NCBI RefSeq assembly: GCF_013266755.1 | Contig: NZ_JABRWJ010000001.1 | Span: 744,001-808,000 of the forward strand | DNA length: 64,000 nt | Source of the DNA: Pseudaquabacterium terrae | GTDB taxonomy: Bacteria > Pseudomonadota > Gammaproteobacteria > Burkholderiales > Burkholderiaceae_C | Direction of reading: 5' to 3' | Shown: piece after piece, positions 1 through 27,951 of the stretch | Layout of the letters: each line of letters opens with the position of its first letter | How positions within the stretch are numbered: position 1 is the first letter of the stretch | Notes under the pieces: model-generated | Databases searched by the model: none | Seen by the model: the letters and a program-made list of their open reading frames with translations, nothing else | Told to the model about the DNA's origin: nothing | Position numbers and translations under genes: made by a program

Positions 1-1
1 G

Positions 2-1021
2 ACCTATTACTACTCGGCCGACGGCCGCTGGGACTACGAGGCGCTGCGCACGATCGCGCGCAACAACCTGATCGTCGACGCGCGCGAGGCGGCGCTCGAA
101 TTCAGCGGCTGCCAGGACTGCGCCGCCGTCGGCAACACCATCGTCTTCACGGCCGGCTACCAGCCGCCGTCCGACGGCGGCACCATCTTCGGCGGCGATG
201 CGATGCGGCTGCACGACAGCCGCATCCTCGGTGCGGCCGACGGCGCCGGCAGCGACTGCCAGTTCTGGGACGCGGCGCAGCAGGACTACGTGACGGTCGA
301 CCCGTGCTGGGGCGTCGGCGCCAACGCGCCCGCGCCGGTCAACCGCGTGCTGCGCAGCAACAACCTGCTGGTCGCCAACAACGTGTTCGCAGCGGTTGGT
401 GGCAGCTTCGGCCGCGGCACGGGAGGCGTCGTGCCCTGCCCGTTGAACGTCACCGGCGGCACGGCGATGCGCACGCACAACGCCAACTACTGGTGGAACG
501 GCGGCAGCATGCTGCCTTCCGAAGGCTGCAGCGCGCTGAACGAAGGGCCGCGCTCCAGATGGCCCGGCGCCGGCGCGACGCTGTCGCCGATCGCCGGCAG
601 CAGCATCGACTCAACGAGCCTCGGCCGGCTCGGCGGCAGCATCGTCGCGGCGCTGCTGCCGCGCAGCGGCGCGCCGCTGGCCGACATGGCGATCGCCGCG
701 GCACAACAGGCCGCCCACGACCGGCTCGGCGCGCCGCGCGGGCTGGTCGGCGGCGCCAGCGTCGGCGCCATCGTCGGCGTCGAGCCGACCAGCGACCGCC
801 TGTTCAACTTCGCCGAGCGCTTCTACCCCGAGTACTTCCCGACGCACGCCGCCAGCGGCCACGCCATCGGCTACTACTACCGCCACCACGCGGCGACCGA
901 CACCTACATCGGCAGCAAGGACGGGCGGCTTTACGTGCTCGGGCCGGCCTTCGGCGGCCAGATCACCGACCTCGGGCCGCTGGCGAACTGGCTGCCGGCG
1001 GCGCAGGAGGCCGGTTTCTGA
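2..1021 (+). CDS. C-terminal part of an exported beta-helix-like protein ending in a YP-FP module (5' partial)
   Basis: The frame is open from base 2 with no start, so the N-terminus lies outside the window; 339 residues are visible. The first ~180 residues are rich in Asn, Gly and short V/I strands (RNNLIVDAREAALEF, NNLLVANNVF), which fits a right-handed parallel beta-helix such as in polysaccharide lyases or adhesins, but I see no catalytic motif. From about base 788 to the end there is a separate module (LFNFAERFYPEYFP ... YYYRHH ... YIGSKDGRLYVLGPAFGG) that recurs in the proteins at 21004-21744 and 26092-27951. The stop TGA directly abuts the stop of the convergent gene (TGATCA across 1019-1024). 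Export is inferred from the family resemblance; the signal peptide would be upstream. Function unknown. Confidence 0.75.
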   Translation, partial: TYYYSADGRWDYEALRTIARNNLIVDAREAALEFSGCQDCAAVGNTIVFTAGYQPPSDGGTIFGGDAMRLHDSRILGAADGAGSDCQFWDAAQQDYVTVDPCWGVGANAPAPVNRVLRSNNLLVANNVFAAVGGSFGRGTGGVVPCPLNVTGGTAMRTHNANYWWNGGSMLPSEGCSALNEGPRSRWPGAGATLSPIAGSSIDSTSLGRLGGSIVAALLPRSGAPLADMAIAAAQQAAHDRLGAPRGLVGGASVGAIVGVEPTSDRLFNFAERFYPEYFPTHAASGHAIGYYYRHHAATDTYIGSKDGRLYVLGPAFGGQITDLGPLANWLPAAQEAGF

Positions 1022-21003: not shown

Positions 21004-21744
21004 ATGGCCAAACGCCAGACACTGACGACAAGAATCGCCGCGCCGATCGCGGCCCTGCTGCTGGCCTGCGGCAGCGGCGCCGCGCAGGCGGCGGAGCCCA
21101 CGACCGAGCAGCTGTTCCGCTGGGCACAGATGACCTATCCCGAGCTCTTCCCGGACTCGCCGCCGATCGTGCAGCTGCCGCACGACGGCAAGACTTTCCA
21201 GGTGCGGTCGTACGTCAACGGCAACCACCTCGGCGTCGCCAACGGCGAGGTCTACGGGCTCGGCGCCTTCACCGGCGGCGTGATCCACAACTTCGGCGCG
21301 GTGGCCAACTATGCGAGCGCGGTGTGCGCCAAGCTCGGCTGCGGCACCGGGCCGGACAGCGGAATGGTGTACTCGGCGGTGCAGGTCGGCGCGCCGCAGC
21401 CGGCATCGATCACCGCGCAGGTGCCGAAGAACGGCCGGGTCTCGGCGAGCGGCAGCTACATGATCTCGGGCACGCTGGGCGGCGACCTGTTCAGCTTGGC
21501 CGGCCAGACGCTTTACGTCATCGTCGAGGATCCGTCGTCGCTGTTCGAGAGCAACGCCAGCGTCAACATCGTGCAAGGCAGCAGCTTCAGCTACCAGCTG
21601 GTGCTGCAGCCGCGCACGCTGCCGACGGTGGGCCGCTTCACCGGCACGCTGCGCGCCTTCGCCTGCCTCGATGCCGGCTGCGGCACGCGACTGGGCGGCA
21701 CACCGCTGCTGATTCCGTACGACGTGACGGTGCGAGCCAACTGA
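21004..21744 (+). CDS. Exported protein with an N-terminal YP-FP module
   Basis: 246 residues. The leader (RIAAPIAALLLACGSGAAQAA) could be a Sec signal cut after AQA or a lipoprotein signal using LLAC; the sequence does not decide. Residues about 33-115 (bases 21100-21350) form the module shared with the genes at 2 and 26092: LFRWAQMTYPELFPDS ... FQVRSYVNGNHLGVANGEVYGLGAFTGGVIHNFGAVANY. The rest is beta-rich (VSASGSYMISGTLGGDLFSLAGQTLYVIVEDPSSLFESN) like an Ig-type or jelly-roll domain, with a Cys pair in FACLDAGCG. CCGGAGGGA before the ATG is a good ribosome site. Function unknown. Confidence 0.82.
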   Translation: MAKRQTLTTRIAAPIAALLLACGSGAAQAAEPTTEQLFRWAQMTYPELFPDSPPIVQLPHDGKTFQVRSYVNGNHLGVANGEVYGLGAFTGGVIHNFGAVANYASAVCAKLGCGTGPDSGMVYSAVQVGAPQPASITAQVPKNGRVSASGSYMISGTLGGDLFSLAGQTLYVIVEDPSSLFESNASVNIVQGSSFSYQLVLQPRTLPTVGRFTGTLRAFACLDAGCGTRLGGTPLLIPYDVTVRAN

Positions 21745-22902: not shown

Positions 22903-25203
22903 CTACAGCGCTGGCTGCAGGACGAGCTTCCAGGCGTTGAGCTTGCCGATGTCGAGCCGGGCCAGGTCGGCGATGCGCAGCTCCCAGTCGCCGGCCATTC
23001 CTTCGCCGGCCAGCGCCGCGAGGCCCGGTGTCGTCGCCGCGGTGTAGGTCTTCACGATGTTGTCGGTCGCCCCGCCGATGCCGTCGTGCAGCACGACCTC
23101 GCTGCCGGCCGGCGAGATCAGCAGCACGCGCAGGTCGCCGATGAAGCTGTGCGCGATGTCCAGCGTGACCTCGATCGCGCCGATCACGCCGGCGGCGGGG
23201 CTGTGCAGCGTGCGGTGGATGCCGACCGCGTCGTCGTCGGGAATGTGGGTGCCGGGCGCTTCCTGCAGCGTCACCGGGCCGGCCGGCGGCGTCGCGGCGG
23301 CGAACTGCAGCGCCCAGCGGTTCAGCCGCCCGTTGTCGGCCGGCGCCAGGTCCTGCACCGTCAGCCGCCAGGTGCCCTGTGCATTGCGGCCGCGCCAGGC
23401 GGCCAGCGCCGGCAGCGTGGCTTCGTCGAAGACCAGCTTCAGGTCGTCGGCATTGCCGCCGACGCCCTTCGGATGCAGCACGATGGTCTCGCCCCAGGGC
23501 GCCATCAGCCGCACGCGCAGGTCGCCGCGGTAGCTGTGGCTGATGTCGACGGCGATCGTCAGGCTCGCGAAAACCACCGACTCGGCGACCTCGATCACGT
23601 CGGTGATACCCAGGCCCTGGTTGTCGGGGACCGCGCGGTCGGGCGCCGAGCTCTTCTGCAGCACCTGCGGCGGGACCACCACGTCGCCGAGCGCCACCCT
23701 GAAGCTCATCTGTCCGCCGGGTGCTGAGATGGCGTGGATGTCCAGCCGCGAGGCACTGCCGTCCCACCACTTGCTCGACGGCGTGGTCGTGTCGGCGAAG
23801 CGCTTGGCAACCTGGCCGAACAGGTCGGTGCCGTCGCCCAGGCCGCCGCGCTGCCGTTCGAGCGCGAAGGCGCCGTCGGCCTGCTCGAGCGACAGCTCGT
23901 AGTGGCTGGCCGGCGTCATCAGCTCGTTGCTGTTGTCGCCGCCCTCGTCGATGTGCCAGATGGCCAGGCCTTCGTCGGGCAGCCCGGCATCGCGCCCGGC
24001 CTTGGCACGGTTCTCGATCAGGAAGTACTCGTCGCTGTTCTTCGCGTACATCGCGAACTGATTGGCACCGGCCTCGAGCGTCAGCTGCTGGCCGTGCTCG
24101 AGGTTGGTGACGCTGCCGGCCCAGCCGGACAAGCGCTTCAGGTAGGCCGAGACGTGCGCCGGGTTCTTCTCGGTGGCGTGGCTACCCGCACACATCAGGC
24201 AATAGGCACCGACACCGCTGGACTCGTTGCCGTAGTCGTACAGGTCGGGGTAGTCGCACAGCATGTGGCCGTTCTCGTGGCAGAAGGTGCCCAGCGCCAG
24301 CTGCTGGCTCATGTCGGTGAACTGGTAGTCGAACGCCGAACGGCCCGGCGCCAGCGGCACCGCGCTGGCCAGGTGCCAGGCGTGCGGCCACAGGCCCTCG
24401 GCCCAGTTGTTGACGACCTCGCCGGCGTAGTAGACGTTCATCGCGTAGACCAGGCCGGCCGAATCGGGGGTCAGCCCGGCGAAATCGAAGCCCTGGCCCT
24501 TCAGGTGGTTCAGCGCCTCGAGGATCAGCTGGCGCGCGCGCACGCCCTGCTCGATGTTGCGGTCGGTGTAGAACGACTTCGGGTGCAGCGCGCGGTAGTA
24601 CGGCGCGACGATGTTGGTGTAGCGGCAGCGGCCGATCGAGTTGTCGAAGAAGTAGTCGCGCACCGAGCCGTGGTTGCCGAAGCCGGAATAGCCCGGCTGG
24701 TTGCAGAAGCGCTCGACCTCCTCGCGCGTGATCGTGCCGGGTTCGTCGGCGAAATCGATCAGCAGGCACAGGCCGACGAAATCGCCGACCGTCGCGCGCT
24801 GCGGCGGCGCGAACACCGGGCCGCCGGCAGCGGCCAGCGCACGCATCGCGCGCCGTTGGGCGCGGCGCTCCTCGCGCCGCTGGTCGCAGCGCCGGCCGCC
24901 CAGGCGCTGCATGCCTTCGATGCCGCGCGCATGCGCCGCATCGCGCCGGATGCGCAGGCCGCGCGGCACCGCGGCCGCCGCGCCGTCGAGGTGGCCGAGC
25001 GGACCGGGCGCGGGCTCGAGCCGCTCGCCGTCATCGGACAACTGCGCGACCTCGTAGAAGCCCGTGGCCGGATTGCGCGTGACGGTGTAGCCGTCCGTGG
25101 TCTCGAACACCGCGTAGTGCTGGTCGCCCCAGCCGCGCAGCTGGATCGTGCTGCCGTCGGGTTGCGTGAAAGTGAACTGCTTACCGCTGAAAGGTGTGGC
25201 CAT
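22903..25203 (-). CDS. M6-like metalloprotease with two C-terminal P-domains
   Basis: 766 residues. An N-terminal propeptide-like region (FTQPDGSTIQLRGWGDQHYAVFETTDGYTV) precedes a gluzincin core with the zinc motif HENGH at 309-313 (FCHENGHMLCDYPDLYDY), preceded by LCLLIDFADEPGTITREEVERFCNQPGYSG. The last ~240 residues hold two proprotein-convertase P-domain-like units (AVPDNQGLGITDVIEVAES ... DISHSYRGDLRVRL, then HIPDDDAVGIHRTL ... DIAHSFIGDLRVLL). No signal peptide is visible from the ATG at 25203, although GGGAGGA just upstream supports that start. A secreted role would need a non-classical or type I route; unresolved. Confidence 0.85.
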   Translation of the reverse strand: MATPFSGKQFTFTQPDGSTIQLRGWGDQHYAVFETTDGYTVTRNPATGFYEVAQLSDDGERLEPAPGPLGHLDGAAAAVPRGLRIRRDAAHARGIEGMQRLGGRRCDQRREERRAQRRAMRALAAAGGPVFAPPQRATVGDFVGLCLLIDFADEPGTITREEVERFCNQPGYSGFGNHGSVRDYFFDNSIGRCRYTNIVAPYYRALHPKSFYTDRNIEQGVRARQLILEALNHLKGQGFDFAGLTPDSAGLVYAMNVYYAGEVVNNWAEGLWPHAWHLASAVPLAPGRSAFDYQFTDMSQQLALGTFCHENGHMLCDYPDLYDYGNESSGVGAYCLMCAGSHATEKNPAHVSAYLKRLSGWAGSVTNLEHGQQLTLEAGANQFAMYAKNSDEYFLIENRAKAGRDAGLPDEGLAIWHIDEGGDNSNELMTPASHYELSLEQADGAFALERQRGGLGDGTDLFGQVAKRFADTTTPSSKWWDGSASRLDIHAISAPGGQMSFRVALGDVVVPPQVLQKSSAPDRAVPDNQGLGITDVIEVAESVVFASLTIAVDISHSYRGDLRVRLMAPWGETIVLHPKGVGGNADDLKLVFDEATLPALAAWRGRNAQGTWRLTVQDLAPADNGRLNRWALQFAAATPPAGPVTLQEAPGTHIPDDDAVGIHRTLHSPAAGVIGAIEVTLDIAHSFIGDLRVLLISPAGSEVVLHDGIGGATDNIVKTYTAATTPGLAALAGEGMAGDWELRIADLARLDIGKLNAWKLVLQPAL

Positions 25204-25298
25204 CGTCGTCCTCCCGGACGCAACCGCGCGCCCTGGTGAGACCGACAGTAGTCCGACGCGGCCGCCTGCGCCATCGTCATCCCGGGGGAAACGCACCC

Positions 25299-25946
25299 CT
25301 AGGATCGTTCGCGGCGGCTGTAATGCACCCGGCGGGTGTGCGTTCCGTGGTGGCGATGATGGTGCCGGTGATGGTGGCGCCGCCACCGACGCCAGGCGAC
25401 CAGCAGGCCGAACGCGGCGCCGGCGGCCACCAGCAGCGACCACGGCAAGGACTTGGGCAGCGCCGGCAATCCGCTGGAGCCGACGGCGGGGTCGACCCGC
25501 TGGGCGTCGCCGAACGCATCCTTGAACAGCCGCGCATCGCTGCGCGTTCCCGGCGCGCGGACATCGGCGAAGCTCAGCGGCGGCAGCCGGACGCTGTCGG
25601 CCAGCGTCGGCAATTGCAATGCGGCCAGGCCCGCGCCATTGACCAGCGACGCCGCGCTCGCCTGCAGGGCACCGGGCTTGTTGAACCAGTCGGCCGGCGT
25701 CAGCACCTCGCCGAGCACCGGGTCGCCGAGCCAGCTGCCGAATTCGAGCGCGCTTGCGGCGACGGACGGCGCATCGTCGGCGATCACCCGCCCGACCTCG
25801 GCCGCCGCGCTGTCATCAGGCCCGCCAGCCACGCGATCGACATGCACCGGCGCGCCGAGCGCGCCCGGCACGCCCACCACGAGCAACAGCGCGATCGCCG
25901 GGAGGCACCGCGCCATGCACATCTCGACACATTCGACCACCCGCAT
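25299..25946 (-). CDS. Exported protein with C-terminal membrane anchor and His-rich tail
   Basis: 215 residues. A signal peptide (ARCLPAIALLLVVGVPGALGA) is followed by ~140 residues without a recognised domain (WFNKPGALQASAASLVNGAGLAALQLP), then a single membrane helix (LPWSLLVAAGAAFGLLVAWRR) and the tail WRRHHHRHHHRHHGTH with nine histidines. The layout of anchor plus basic residues resembles PEP-CTERM-like sorting tails, but the PEP motif is missing. The tail would lie in the cytoplasm and could bind metal. Start at 25946 is chosen for GGAG six bases upstream; ATGs at 25922 and 25916 are alternatives. Confidence 0.65.
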   Translation of the reverse strand: MRVVECVEMCMARCLPAIALLLVVGVPGALGAPVHVDRVAGGPDDSAAAEVGRVIADDAPSVAASALEFGSWLGDPVLGEVLTPADWFNKPGALQASAASLVNGAGLAALQLPTLADSVRLPPLSFADVRAPGTRSDARLFKDAFGDAQRVDPAVGSSGLPALPKSLPWSLLVAAGAAFGLLVAWRRWRRHHHRHHHRHHGTHTRRVHYSRRERS

Positions 25947-26091: not shown

Positions 26092-27951
26092 TCAGAACAG
26101 GCCGCGCCGCGCGAGGTTGGGCCAGTAGCTGACCGGGCCGAGGTTCAGCGGCGCGGTGCCGGCTTCGTTCTTCACGACGAGCGGGACGTAGGACAGTGCG
26201 GTGTTCGAGCCGCCCTGGCCGAGGCGGCCGGAGGAGCCAGAACCCCAGGCCAGGAGTCGGCCGTCGGCAGCCAGCGCGAGACCGTGCTCGTAGCCACCGG
26301 CTATGGCGACGATGTCGGATAGCTGGCCGAAGCCCGCAGCATTGACAACCGCCGCCGGCAGTCCCGACTCGTTGACGCGCGGATGGTTGACGCCGTCGCC
26401 GAGCTCGCCGTTTTGCGCGTAGCCCCAGCTAAAGACCTTCCCGGCAGCGTCCAGTGCGAGCGAGAAGTTGCCGCCCGCGGCCACGGCGTTCAGGCCGACC
26501 CACGCCCACTCATCCGTGGGTGAATGGACCTTCGCCGCAGCGCTCTGGTTGCTTCTGTCGTTGCCCAGACCCAACGCGCCCCAGCTGTTCCGACCCCAGG
26601 AGTAGACCTGGCCCGATGAAGTCAGTGCCATGCCGTGCAGGTAGCCGGCCGAAACCGCCACCACGCCTTCGAGCGGCTGCGCGGTCGCGCGATCGAGCAC
26701 GTAGGCCGGCGCGCCACTGCTGATGACGTAGCCATGGCCCGTGTTGCCCGCGCCCGCGCTCTCGTAGCCCCAGCTCGTCACGCGCCCATCAGCCAGCAGC
26801 ACTGCGCTCCAGTTCCAACCGGCTGCGATGGCCACGGCCTTGCCGGGCAGGCTCACCGAAACCGGAAACTTCATGGTCGTCGATCCGTTGATGCCCGTGT
26901 ACGAACCCCAGGCGAAGACGGTGCCGTCGTCGGCCAGCGCCAGCGCGTTGTCGTCACCGACGGCCACCGCGACGATGTGCTTCAAGGGCGCGTTGCCGGT
27001 TGGATCGAGCACCCTGCCCGGGCGCGCATCGCCGTTGTGGTTGGTGCGGCCCAACGCGTCACCGTTACCCCAGGAGTGGACCTCGCCGTCCTCGCTCAGC
27101 GCAAGCGCCGTGGTCTCGCCCGCCGACACCGCGACGATGCCCGCGAGCGCGCCCGAGCCCGTCGCCGACTTCACCGCCGTCGGCAGCAACAGCGAAGCGA
27201 GCTGGCTGGAGAACTGGCCCTGCCCCAGCGCGCCGCCCGAGTTCTCGCCCCAGGCCAGCACACGGCCGTCCGGCGTCGCGACCAGGTTGTAGCCGGCGCG
27301 CATGTTGGTGCCCAGCGGCTGCGGCTGCGGAATCACCTTGATCGTCGCCTTCGCGACCAGGCCGCCCTTCGAGACGGTGATCGTCTGCACGCCGAGCCGC
27401 AGGCCCTTGACCGTCGAGCAGTCGGCCGCCACTTCGAGCGCCACCGCCGCATCGCTGCTGCACGTGAACGGGCCGCCGACCGCGAGGCCGGCGGTGTCGG
27501 TCATCGTGAACTGTGCCGGCGTCGCGACGTTCCACGCGGTCTTCGCCGTGGCCGGCGTGCTGACCGCGGCGATTGCATTGGGCGGCGGATTCAGCAGGTC
27601 ATGCGCCTTGCCGACGTACAGCGCCTGCTCGCCGAACGGCCCGCCGAACACGTAGACCTTGGCGTCGGCGACCACCAGAGAGATGCCGGTCTGCGGATAG
27701 AAGCGGTAGCGCCAGGTGTCGACCGAGCGGTCGGGCTGGTGCGACGGGAAGAACTGCGGGTAGTTCGCCTCGGCGAAGTCGAACAGCTGCGTCGCTTCGC
27801 TGGCATTGGCCTGGGCCGGCAAAGCACCGACCGCGCTGGCGATGCGCTGACGCGCCTGCGCGTCACGCTGCGTCGGTCCGTCGTCGGCACCGCCGCCGCA
27901 GCCGGCGACCAGAAAGAGCAGGAGAGAAGCAGCAAGCAGGCGGCAATGCAT
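26092..27951 (-). CDS. Lipoprotein with YP-FP module and seven-bladed RCC1-type propeller
   Basis: 619 residues. A clear lipoprotein signal (LLLFLVAGCGGG, lipobox VAGC) is followed at residues ~51-121 by the module shared with two other exported proteins here (LFDFAEANYPQFFPSH ... WRYRFYPQTGISLVVADAKVYVFGGPFG). Residues ~125-215 look like an Ig-type domain with one disulfide. From ~220 to 610 seven RCC1-like repeats can be counted by their WG motifs: LAWGENSG, HSWGNGDA, FAWGSYTG, TSWGYESA, YSWGRNSW, FSWGYAQN and LAWGSGSS. A seven-bladed propeller on the outer surface is likely. Binding partner unknown. Confidence 0.87.
   Translation of the reverse strand: MHCRLLAASLLLFLVAGCGGGADDGPTQRDAQARQRIASAVGALPAQANASEATQLFDFAEANYPQFFPSHQPDRSVDTWRYRFYPQTGISLVVADAKVYVFGGPFGEQALYVGKAHDLLNPPPNAIAAVSTPATAKTAWNVATPAQFTMTDTAGLAVGGPFTCSSDAAVALEVAADCSTVKGLRLGVQTITVSKGGLVAKATIKVIPQPQPLGTNMRAGYNLVATPDGRVLAWGENSGGALGQGQFSSQLASLLLPTAVKSATGSGALAGIVAVSAGETTALALSEDGEVHSWGNGDALGRTNHNGDARPGRVLDPTGNAPLKHIVAVAVGDDNALALADDGTVFAWGSYTGINGSTTMKFPVSVSLPGKAVAIAAGWNWSAVLLADGRVTSWGYESAGAGNTGHGYVISSGAPAYVLDRATAQPLEGVVAVSAGYLHGMALTSSGQVYSWGRNSWGALGLGNDRSNQSAAAKVHSPTDEWAWVGLNAVAAGGNFSLALDAAGKVFSWGYAQNGELGDGVNHPRVNESGLPAAVVNAAGFGQLSDIVAIAGGYEHGLALAADGRLLAWGSGSSGRLGQGGSNTALSYVPLVVKNEAGTAPLNLGPVSYWPNLARRGLF

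Follow-up and report, generated by a model that had tools for sequence, protein, structure and literature searches.

Three exported proteins encoded in a 64,000-nucleotide stretch of the Pseudaquabacterium terrae genome (hereafter 'the window') appear to carry the same segment of about 70 residues, and the locus thus raises two questions, namely whether this segment is a genuine module and what it might do for its carriers. The first-pass annotation of the window, made from sequence alone, had put the segment at the C-terminus of gene 1 and near the N-terminus of genes 2 and 3, and profile (HMM) envelopes and pairwise BLASTP place it in the same proteins at the same ends, in genes 2 and 3 directly behind the signal (Table 1). 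The three segments align pairwise at E 1e-10, 3e-12, and 9e-7 with 31–36% identity (copy 3 with copy 1 gaplessly over 60 residues); the likeness is therefore beyond chance, and the segments are homologous as judged by these alignments. A profile built from them identifies 24 further copies in the same genome (weakest E 1.5e-4), giving 27 in 8.04 Mb. Chance or composition as the source of the likeness is ruled out by the pairwise BLASTP results and these further copies.

The annotation had also described three different remainders. The RCC1 propeller of gene 3 is recovered by Pfam, whereas the other two, a beta-helix in gene 1 and a beta-sandwich in gene 2, are not: no Pfam family was found in either protein, gene 1 having been searched at full length (L155). 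The gene 2 signal peptide contains, in translation, a lipobox-like LLAC, and both a type I and a lipoprotein signal are possible. Two neighbouring observations deserve mention. Beside gene 2, on the minus strand at 22903–25443, lies an exported M6-type peptidase with two proprotein-convertase P domains (Pfam) and without the module; and elsewhere in the genome an RCC1-like carrier (L156) has a module 68% identical to that of gene 3 (26092–27951).

Table 1. Parts of the three module-bearing genes of the window.
Feature	Position	Strand	Basis
Gene 1, cargo part	1..790	+	Open frame; 5' end upstream of window; full protein is L155
Module copy 1, C-form	791..1000	+	HMM envelope, E 1.7e-27
Gene 1, tail (last six residues AQEAGF, stop)	1001..1021	+	Translation
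Gene 2, signal peptide, ends AQA	21004..21090	+	Translation; heuristic signal finder
Module copy 2, N-form	21103..21321	+	HMM envelope, E 2.7e-19
Gene 2, cargo part and stop	21322..21744	+	Translation
Gene 3, RCC1-type propeller cargo and stop	26092..27585	-	Pfam WD40_RLD 1.4e-64, RCC1 2.1e-37
Module copy 3, N-form	27586..27795	-	HMM envelope, E 1.9e-26
Gene 3, lipobox cysteine and linker (CGGGADD...)	27796..27900	-	Translation
Gene 3, lipoprotein signal, lipobox VAGC	27901..27951	-	Translation

The consensus of the module, over its length of about 70 residues, can be outlined as LFxWAExxYPxxFP ... YxYRYYPxTGxYxGV ... VYVLGP ... VGxL. AlphaFold2 modelling of copy 1 from an alignment of 61 copies gave a pLDDT of 95.1 and a pTM of 0.84, with elements H7-18, E29-32, E35-40, E45-50, E53-57, E66-70, and H75-80. 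The more distant copy 2, modelled from 38 rows, has the same order of elements (pLDDT 95.4, pTM 0.83). The module is thus confidently predicted to consist of a helix, a five-stranded meander, and a short helix. One fold for all three copies had been anticipated, and copies 1 and 2 agree with this as far as two models compared by the order of their secondary-structure elements can tell. The conserved aromatics, R34, and Y36 are each present in 96–98% of both N-terminal and C-terminal copies, and E12, Y15, R34, Y36, and G65 are conserved at 87–100% in both; these residues could equally belong to the core.

Does this domain have a name? Searched against Pfam, the three window modules gave nothing better than E 0.22. 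Among 50 copies, DUF2716 was matched weakly by four (best E 0.0016), the other 46 having no match to it at E 0.1, which is too weak for a claim of kinship; the remaining Pfam matches were to Kelch_1 in two copies (0.06) and to Glyco_transf_6 (0.0053), Ig_7 (0.084), and GP52 (0.097) in one each. The best NCBIfam result for 61 copies was 0.0017 (Rv3169_fam, in two copies), with five further families matched by one copy each. A sequence search of the PDB returned weak matches to ABO glycosyltransferases and matches to 'Cake' proteins, which we take to be designed kelch-type repeats; the latter reach 2.1e-10 but are repeat-driven, with no single stretch passing alone. Membership in a named family was accordingly rejected, the matches in Pfam, NCBIfam, and PDB sequences being weak or repeat-driven. 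Foldseek found no PDB chain at E 0.001 for the models of copies 1 and 2 (best 0.25 and 0.19) and no match among viral models for copy 1 (best 0.02), and a search of open papers with motif strings of the module gave nothing relevant by title. The description of the module as unnamed therefore stands, in the sense that it is absent from the Pfam and NCBIfam versions searched.

Where the module sits in its carriers was examined in a census comprising the window, L081–L154, and L155–L194, a subset of all copies found. Its 126 distinct open frames carry the module near the start (73), at the end (47), or alone (1); the other five (L094, L126, L128, and both parts of L154) are either broken or truncated where a contig ends. 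A rule-based sorting of these frames gave 60 N-terminal, 43 C-terminal, 7 'short or both', and 16 'other'. By eye, 13 of the 16 were N-terminal (including 10 lipoproteins whose hydrophobic part is preceded by an unusually long stretch), five of the seven were C-terminal (the remaining two being L168, alone, and L126, broken), and one of the 43 was half of the broken L154. The module of L128, a frame with its start cut, may be truly internal, and the first L150 copy, which was scored as N-terminal, is 32 residues away from its end. All 90 testable proteins (complete at both ends, with a recognized signal and enough room) place the module at most 85 residues from the cleavage site or at most 20 from the stop, against 24.6 expected under uniform placement, albeit with a home-made heuristic signal finder that looks upstream of the module and so somewhat favours a terminal result. 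The 'varied positions' foreseen by the annotation thus give way to terminal placement, and, as set out below, N- and C-terminal copies form two subfamilies.

A signal was recognized by rule in 102 of the 126 frames and by eye in most of the others, with none seen in one N-terminal carrier (L086), so that almost every carrier whose start is intact has one; a lenient finder scored 94 of the 126 carriers against 223 of 773 other frames. By rule, 42 of the 60 N-terminal frames have a lipobox, and the C-terminal frames in which a signal was found mostly have the type I kind (28 of 35). Glycine follows the lipobox cysteine in 52 of 60 lipobox-like matches, some of the other matches being false. Most C-terminal copies close the chain, with AGCQ, AGY, AGF, or similar as the last residues; tandem pairs occur in methanotroph and other loci, and L168 is a lipoprotein that consists of nothing but anchor and module. 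Some DUF1800-type carriers, L089, L108, L159, and L083 among them, have an unusually long N-terminal stretch ahead of the lipoprotein hydrophobic part.

The two positions correspond to two lineages of the module. A tree of 137 modules (77 columns; broken rows, cut rows, and modules under 55 residues excluded), in which 68 of the 133 inner branches are open, has one clear split with support 98. One side holds 66 rows, 58 labelled C and eight N; the other holds 71, of which 69 are labelled N, one alone, and one C. Copy 1 (as L155) falls in the C-form half and copies 2 and 3 in the N-form half. The labels change nine times on the tree versus 45.2 times in shuffles; hence, cargo changes freely and the chain end rarely. 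In the 58 rows labelled C, cysteines near the start and end of the module are both present in 38, both missing in 16, and represented by the second alone in four and by the first alone in none, counts that are inflated by kinship among rows. This coupling suggests a disulfide tying the two ends of the module together, and such a putative bond would therefore place the module outside the cytoplasm.

Pfam was run on 26 of the 27 carriers of the window's genome (L156 was left out); nine have no match at E 0.001, and three have only matches below the curated cut-off. The cargo recognized there includes RCC1 propellers (three), cyclophilin, DUF1800, GH53, GH113, DUF5122, BNR/sortilin, beta-helix, HZS-alpha-like, nuclease with Ig, and PKD, the module being N-terminal in one beta-helix carrier (L166) and C-terminal in another (L174). 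Elsewhere, cargo comprises subtilase, CAP, trypsin, alpha/beta hydrolase, amidohydrolase, DUF3465, Lcl_C, Sel1, and, with a match below cut-off in one stretch, cytochrome c. L063, from a Nitrosomonas-type genome, has the module fused ahead of DUF3465 (Pfam 1.1e-46).

Cargo also occurs both with and without the module. In each of the genus's six positive genomes, the DUF1800 lipoprotein bears it, and the nearest homologues of this lipoprotein in the negative genomes G009, G007, and G006, at 52–53% identity, lack it and align only from query residues 130, 150, and 152, respectively, that is, past the module. These six module-bearing and three module-free proteins form one tree group with support 99. 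In two of the module-free proteins (L245 and L247), lipobox and linker lead directly into the cargo; the frame of L246 starts at the cargo, with no signal seen. An HZS-alpha-like protein with a C-terminal module is found in three of 21 genomes, and a paralogue in G003, 57% identical and aligning over 48–736 of 819, is without it. No homologue was found in the negative genomes at E 1e-20, and this case is therefore uninformative about them. One carrier (L167:3781-6237) matches the middle domain of the hydrazine synthase alpha subunit at 1.5e-6; we know of no anammox in this genus. Taken on these alignments, the module is a clean add-on, apparently gained or lost beside conserved cargo, and the earlier proposal that it moves as a unit among exported proteins is borne out by both the unrelated cargo and the same cargo with or without it.

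How widely is the module distributed? Within the genus, six of 21 genomes have it, in 27, 18, 12, 15, 21, and 15 copies, and the other 15 (61 to 99% complete) do not, so that its role is dispensable. With 14 of the 21 genomes placed on an rpoB tree (the positive G413 left out), a single branch with support 1.000 separates five positives from nine negatives; a single gain or a single loss therefore accounts for the genus. Further afield, the module was found in 16 of 399 genomes of the order (including the window's), five of 369 of the class, and two of 398 of the phylum, both already among those found. The module also occurs in 15 of 42 genomes from another family of the class, at one to three copies each, so that a high copy number is not the general state. 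Scanning named genomes with two peptide patterns yielded 74 loci, including Aquabacterium, Rubrivivax, Polaromonas, Ramlibacter, Inhella, Ideonella, Nitrosomonas, Chitinimonas, Sulfuricella, Thiohalocapsa, Methylococcaceae, and two 'Deltaproteobacteria' MAGs, which extends the module beyond the betaproteobacteria, the group in which the annotation had proposed to search. Outside the genus, its occurrence is infrequent and scattered (Chitinimonas, Nitrosomonas, Sulfuricellaceae, and Methylococcaceae). Spread by phage or plasmid was rejected: one query against phages and three against plasmids gave no match, and none of 18 pattern matches in viral contigs was confirmed. Local events are also visible. 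In a related genome, L193 (G414:C19:35000-54900) groups four module lipoproteins, three of them head to tail, a local duplication of the N-form, and two module genes appear broken, the module stopping partway in L126 and being split over two frames in L154.

We infer that the module is non-catalytic and docks its carriers onto a partner in the envelope or outside the cell, a reading to which we give an even chance. It is favoured because the module is small, folded, near a chain end, attached to varied exported cargo, and found in tandem or lipid-anchored alone, and because it is gained or lost without touching the cargo, as binding domains behave. The conserved aromatics, R34, and Y36 of both forms and the coupled cysteines of the C-labelled rows count on the same side. 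Carriers would leave the cytoplasm through an ordinary Sec or lipoprotein signal, the module would fold outside, and it would attach to a single shared partner, perhaps a glycan of the envelope or matrix or else a protein of the surface, thereby keeping enzymes, propellers, and lipoproteins that are unrelated to one another at one place. The N-form would lie between the linker (or the signal cleavage site) and the cargo, the C-form last in the chain. The residue after the lipoprotein cysteine bears on membrane destination (the +2 rule), by which CGGG lipoproteins would go to the outer membrane. Against docking, Foldseek matched neither model to a known binding domain among PDB chains at E 0.001; furthermore, the family mentioned above carries only one to three copies per positive genome, and 15 of the 21 genomes of the genus manage without the module.

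Unlikely, in our estimate, is that the module serves as a sorting or secretion signal by which a dedicated machine recognizes, moves, or processes carriers, in the manner of the type IX domain or PEP-CTERM. Terminal position and the many unrelated exported carriers speak for such a signal, as do the 12–27 copies or none in one genus, the kind of pattern through which PEP-CTERM was noticed (PMC1569441). The module, however, works from either end, has no membrane helix with basic tail at its own end, and occurs in a stand-alone lipoprotein (L168) that would have no cargo to sort, and the low copy number in that other family likewise disagrees. Nor does either of the two machines searched follow it. 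The type II secretin GspD (TIGR02517) scores over cut-off in five of six positives and eight of ten negatives searched within the genus, in six of 15 positives from other parts of the order, and in none of eight Nitrosomonas-type positives that are 99–100% complete (lineage taken from carrier likeness); exosortase (PF09721) is present in 17 of 21 positives and in all ten negatives searched. Given this uneven occurrence, neither type II secretion nor exosortase can be an obligate partner, and both were rejected as such.

Candidate partners were also sought around the carrier genes. No shared neighbour stands out among the 25 widest clusters listed: the carriers themselves lead (68 loci), followed by what looks by eye like a common signalling family (19 frames, 18 loci), and another cluster of 12 frames in 12 loci looks by eye like DUF1501 beside DUF1800 carriers. 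The rest of the 25 span at most seven loci each, some being plainly antisense frames or orthologous loci. A shared upstream sigma-54 site, as for PEP-CTERM, was rejected for lack of excess (with two mismatches allowed, five of 38 versus 42 of 248). Six of 38 carrier upstream regions (G000 and G003), versus one of 248 others, contain the 8-mer CGCAGCCT; it is the best of many 8-mers, orthologue pairs included, and may be chance. An S-layer link in methanotrophs, raised as an idea only, was dropped, the available text of PMC13274458 mentioning no such domain.

We are similarly doubtful that the module is a cap, stalk, or folding aid that would space cargo from the lipid anchor or protect the chain end, with no partner involved. 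Its terminal position, small and stable predicted fold, and coupled cysteines would suit such a part, as would the N-forms lying between linker and cargo; yet the conservation of E12, Y15, R34, Y36, and G65 exceeds the apparent need of a spacer (though the core could explain it), and the all-or-none pattern within the genus is unexpected for a plain cap. Quite improbable is a cohesin/dockerin-like pairing in which lipoprotein N-forms bind the C-forms of released proteins and build a surface complex: both forms do occur in the window's genome and in G003, and tandem pairs exist, but in the tree rows, to which this point is confined, every one of the four named Nitrosomonas loci is N-form and the Methylococcaceae all lie in the C-form half, so each form may serve alone.

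The docking reading can be taken further, with little confidence, to a new localization system of diderms, in which a small folded tag in two forms, the N-form on the lipid side and the C-form at the chain end, would gather unrelated lipoproteins and released enzymes on a common surface partner present in some lineages and missing from close relatives. Were this so, a dozen or more proteins would change address together upon gain or loss of the system. Independently of that proposal, the module marks 27 exported proteins in one genome, recurs in ammonia oxidizers, methanotrophs, and Burkholderiales, and is nameless in Pfam and NCBIfam. Its presence in 12–27 copies or none within one genus is a natural experiment for a partner search by gene content, as with PEP-CTERM, and the DUF1800 lipoprotein with and without the module provides a matched pair for bench work.

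Among known systems, PEP-CTERM is a terminal region on many exported proteins, with many copies per genome and a patchy distribution (PMC1569441). The module is likewise a patchy, many-copy terminal homology region of otherwise unrelated proteins with N-terminal signal peptides. PEP-CTERM as described there is a short motif, a membrane helix, and a basic cluster at the C-terminus, whereas the module is a folded domain at either end: the PEP motif, helix, and basic cluster are absent, the C-form has the chain ends given above, and the model is a soluble alpha/beta fold. GlyGly-CTERM, the rhombosortase system, is also a C-terminal homology region on otherwise unrelated carriers, with up to 13 per genome (PMC3237569), but it too consists of motif, membrane helix, and basic cluster, which the module lacks in its model and C-terminal ends. 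PEP-CTERM further leads one to expect exosortase, which does not follow the module. We therefore refuse both identifications; in distribution the module resembles these systems, and in structure it does not. The C-terminal domain of type IX secretion is folded, of similar size, and found at the end of many kinds of exported proteins, and NCBIfam contains models of it; none of these appears in the matches listed for the 61 copies scanned at E 0.1, and that domain is C-terminal, whereas the module also has an N-terminal form. CBM, LysM, and SPOR are small non-catalytic domains that exported proteins carry at either terminus, in some cases as tandem copies. No Pfam family of these types was matched by the 50 copies at E 0.1; by analogy, the module probably works as such terminal binding domains do.
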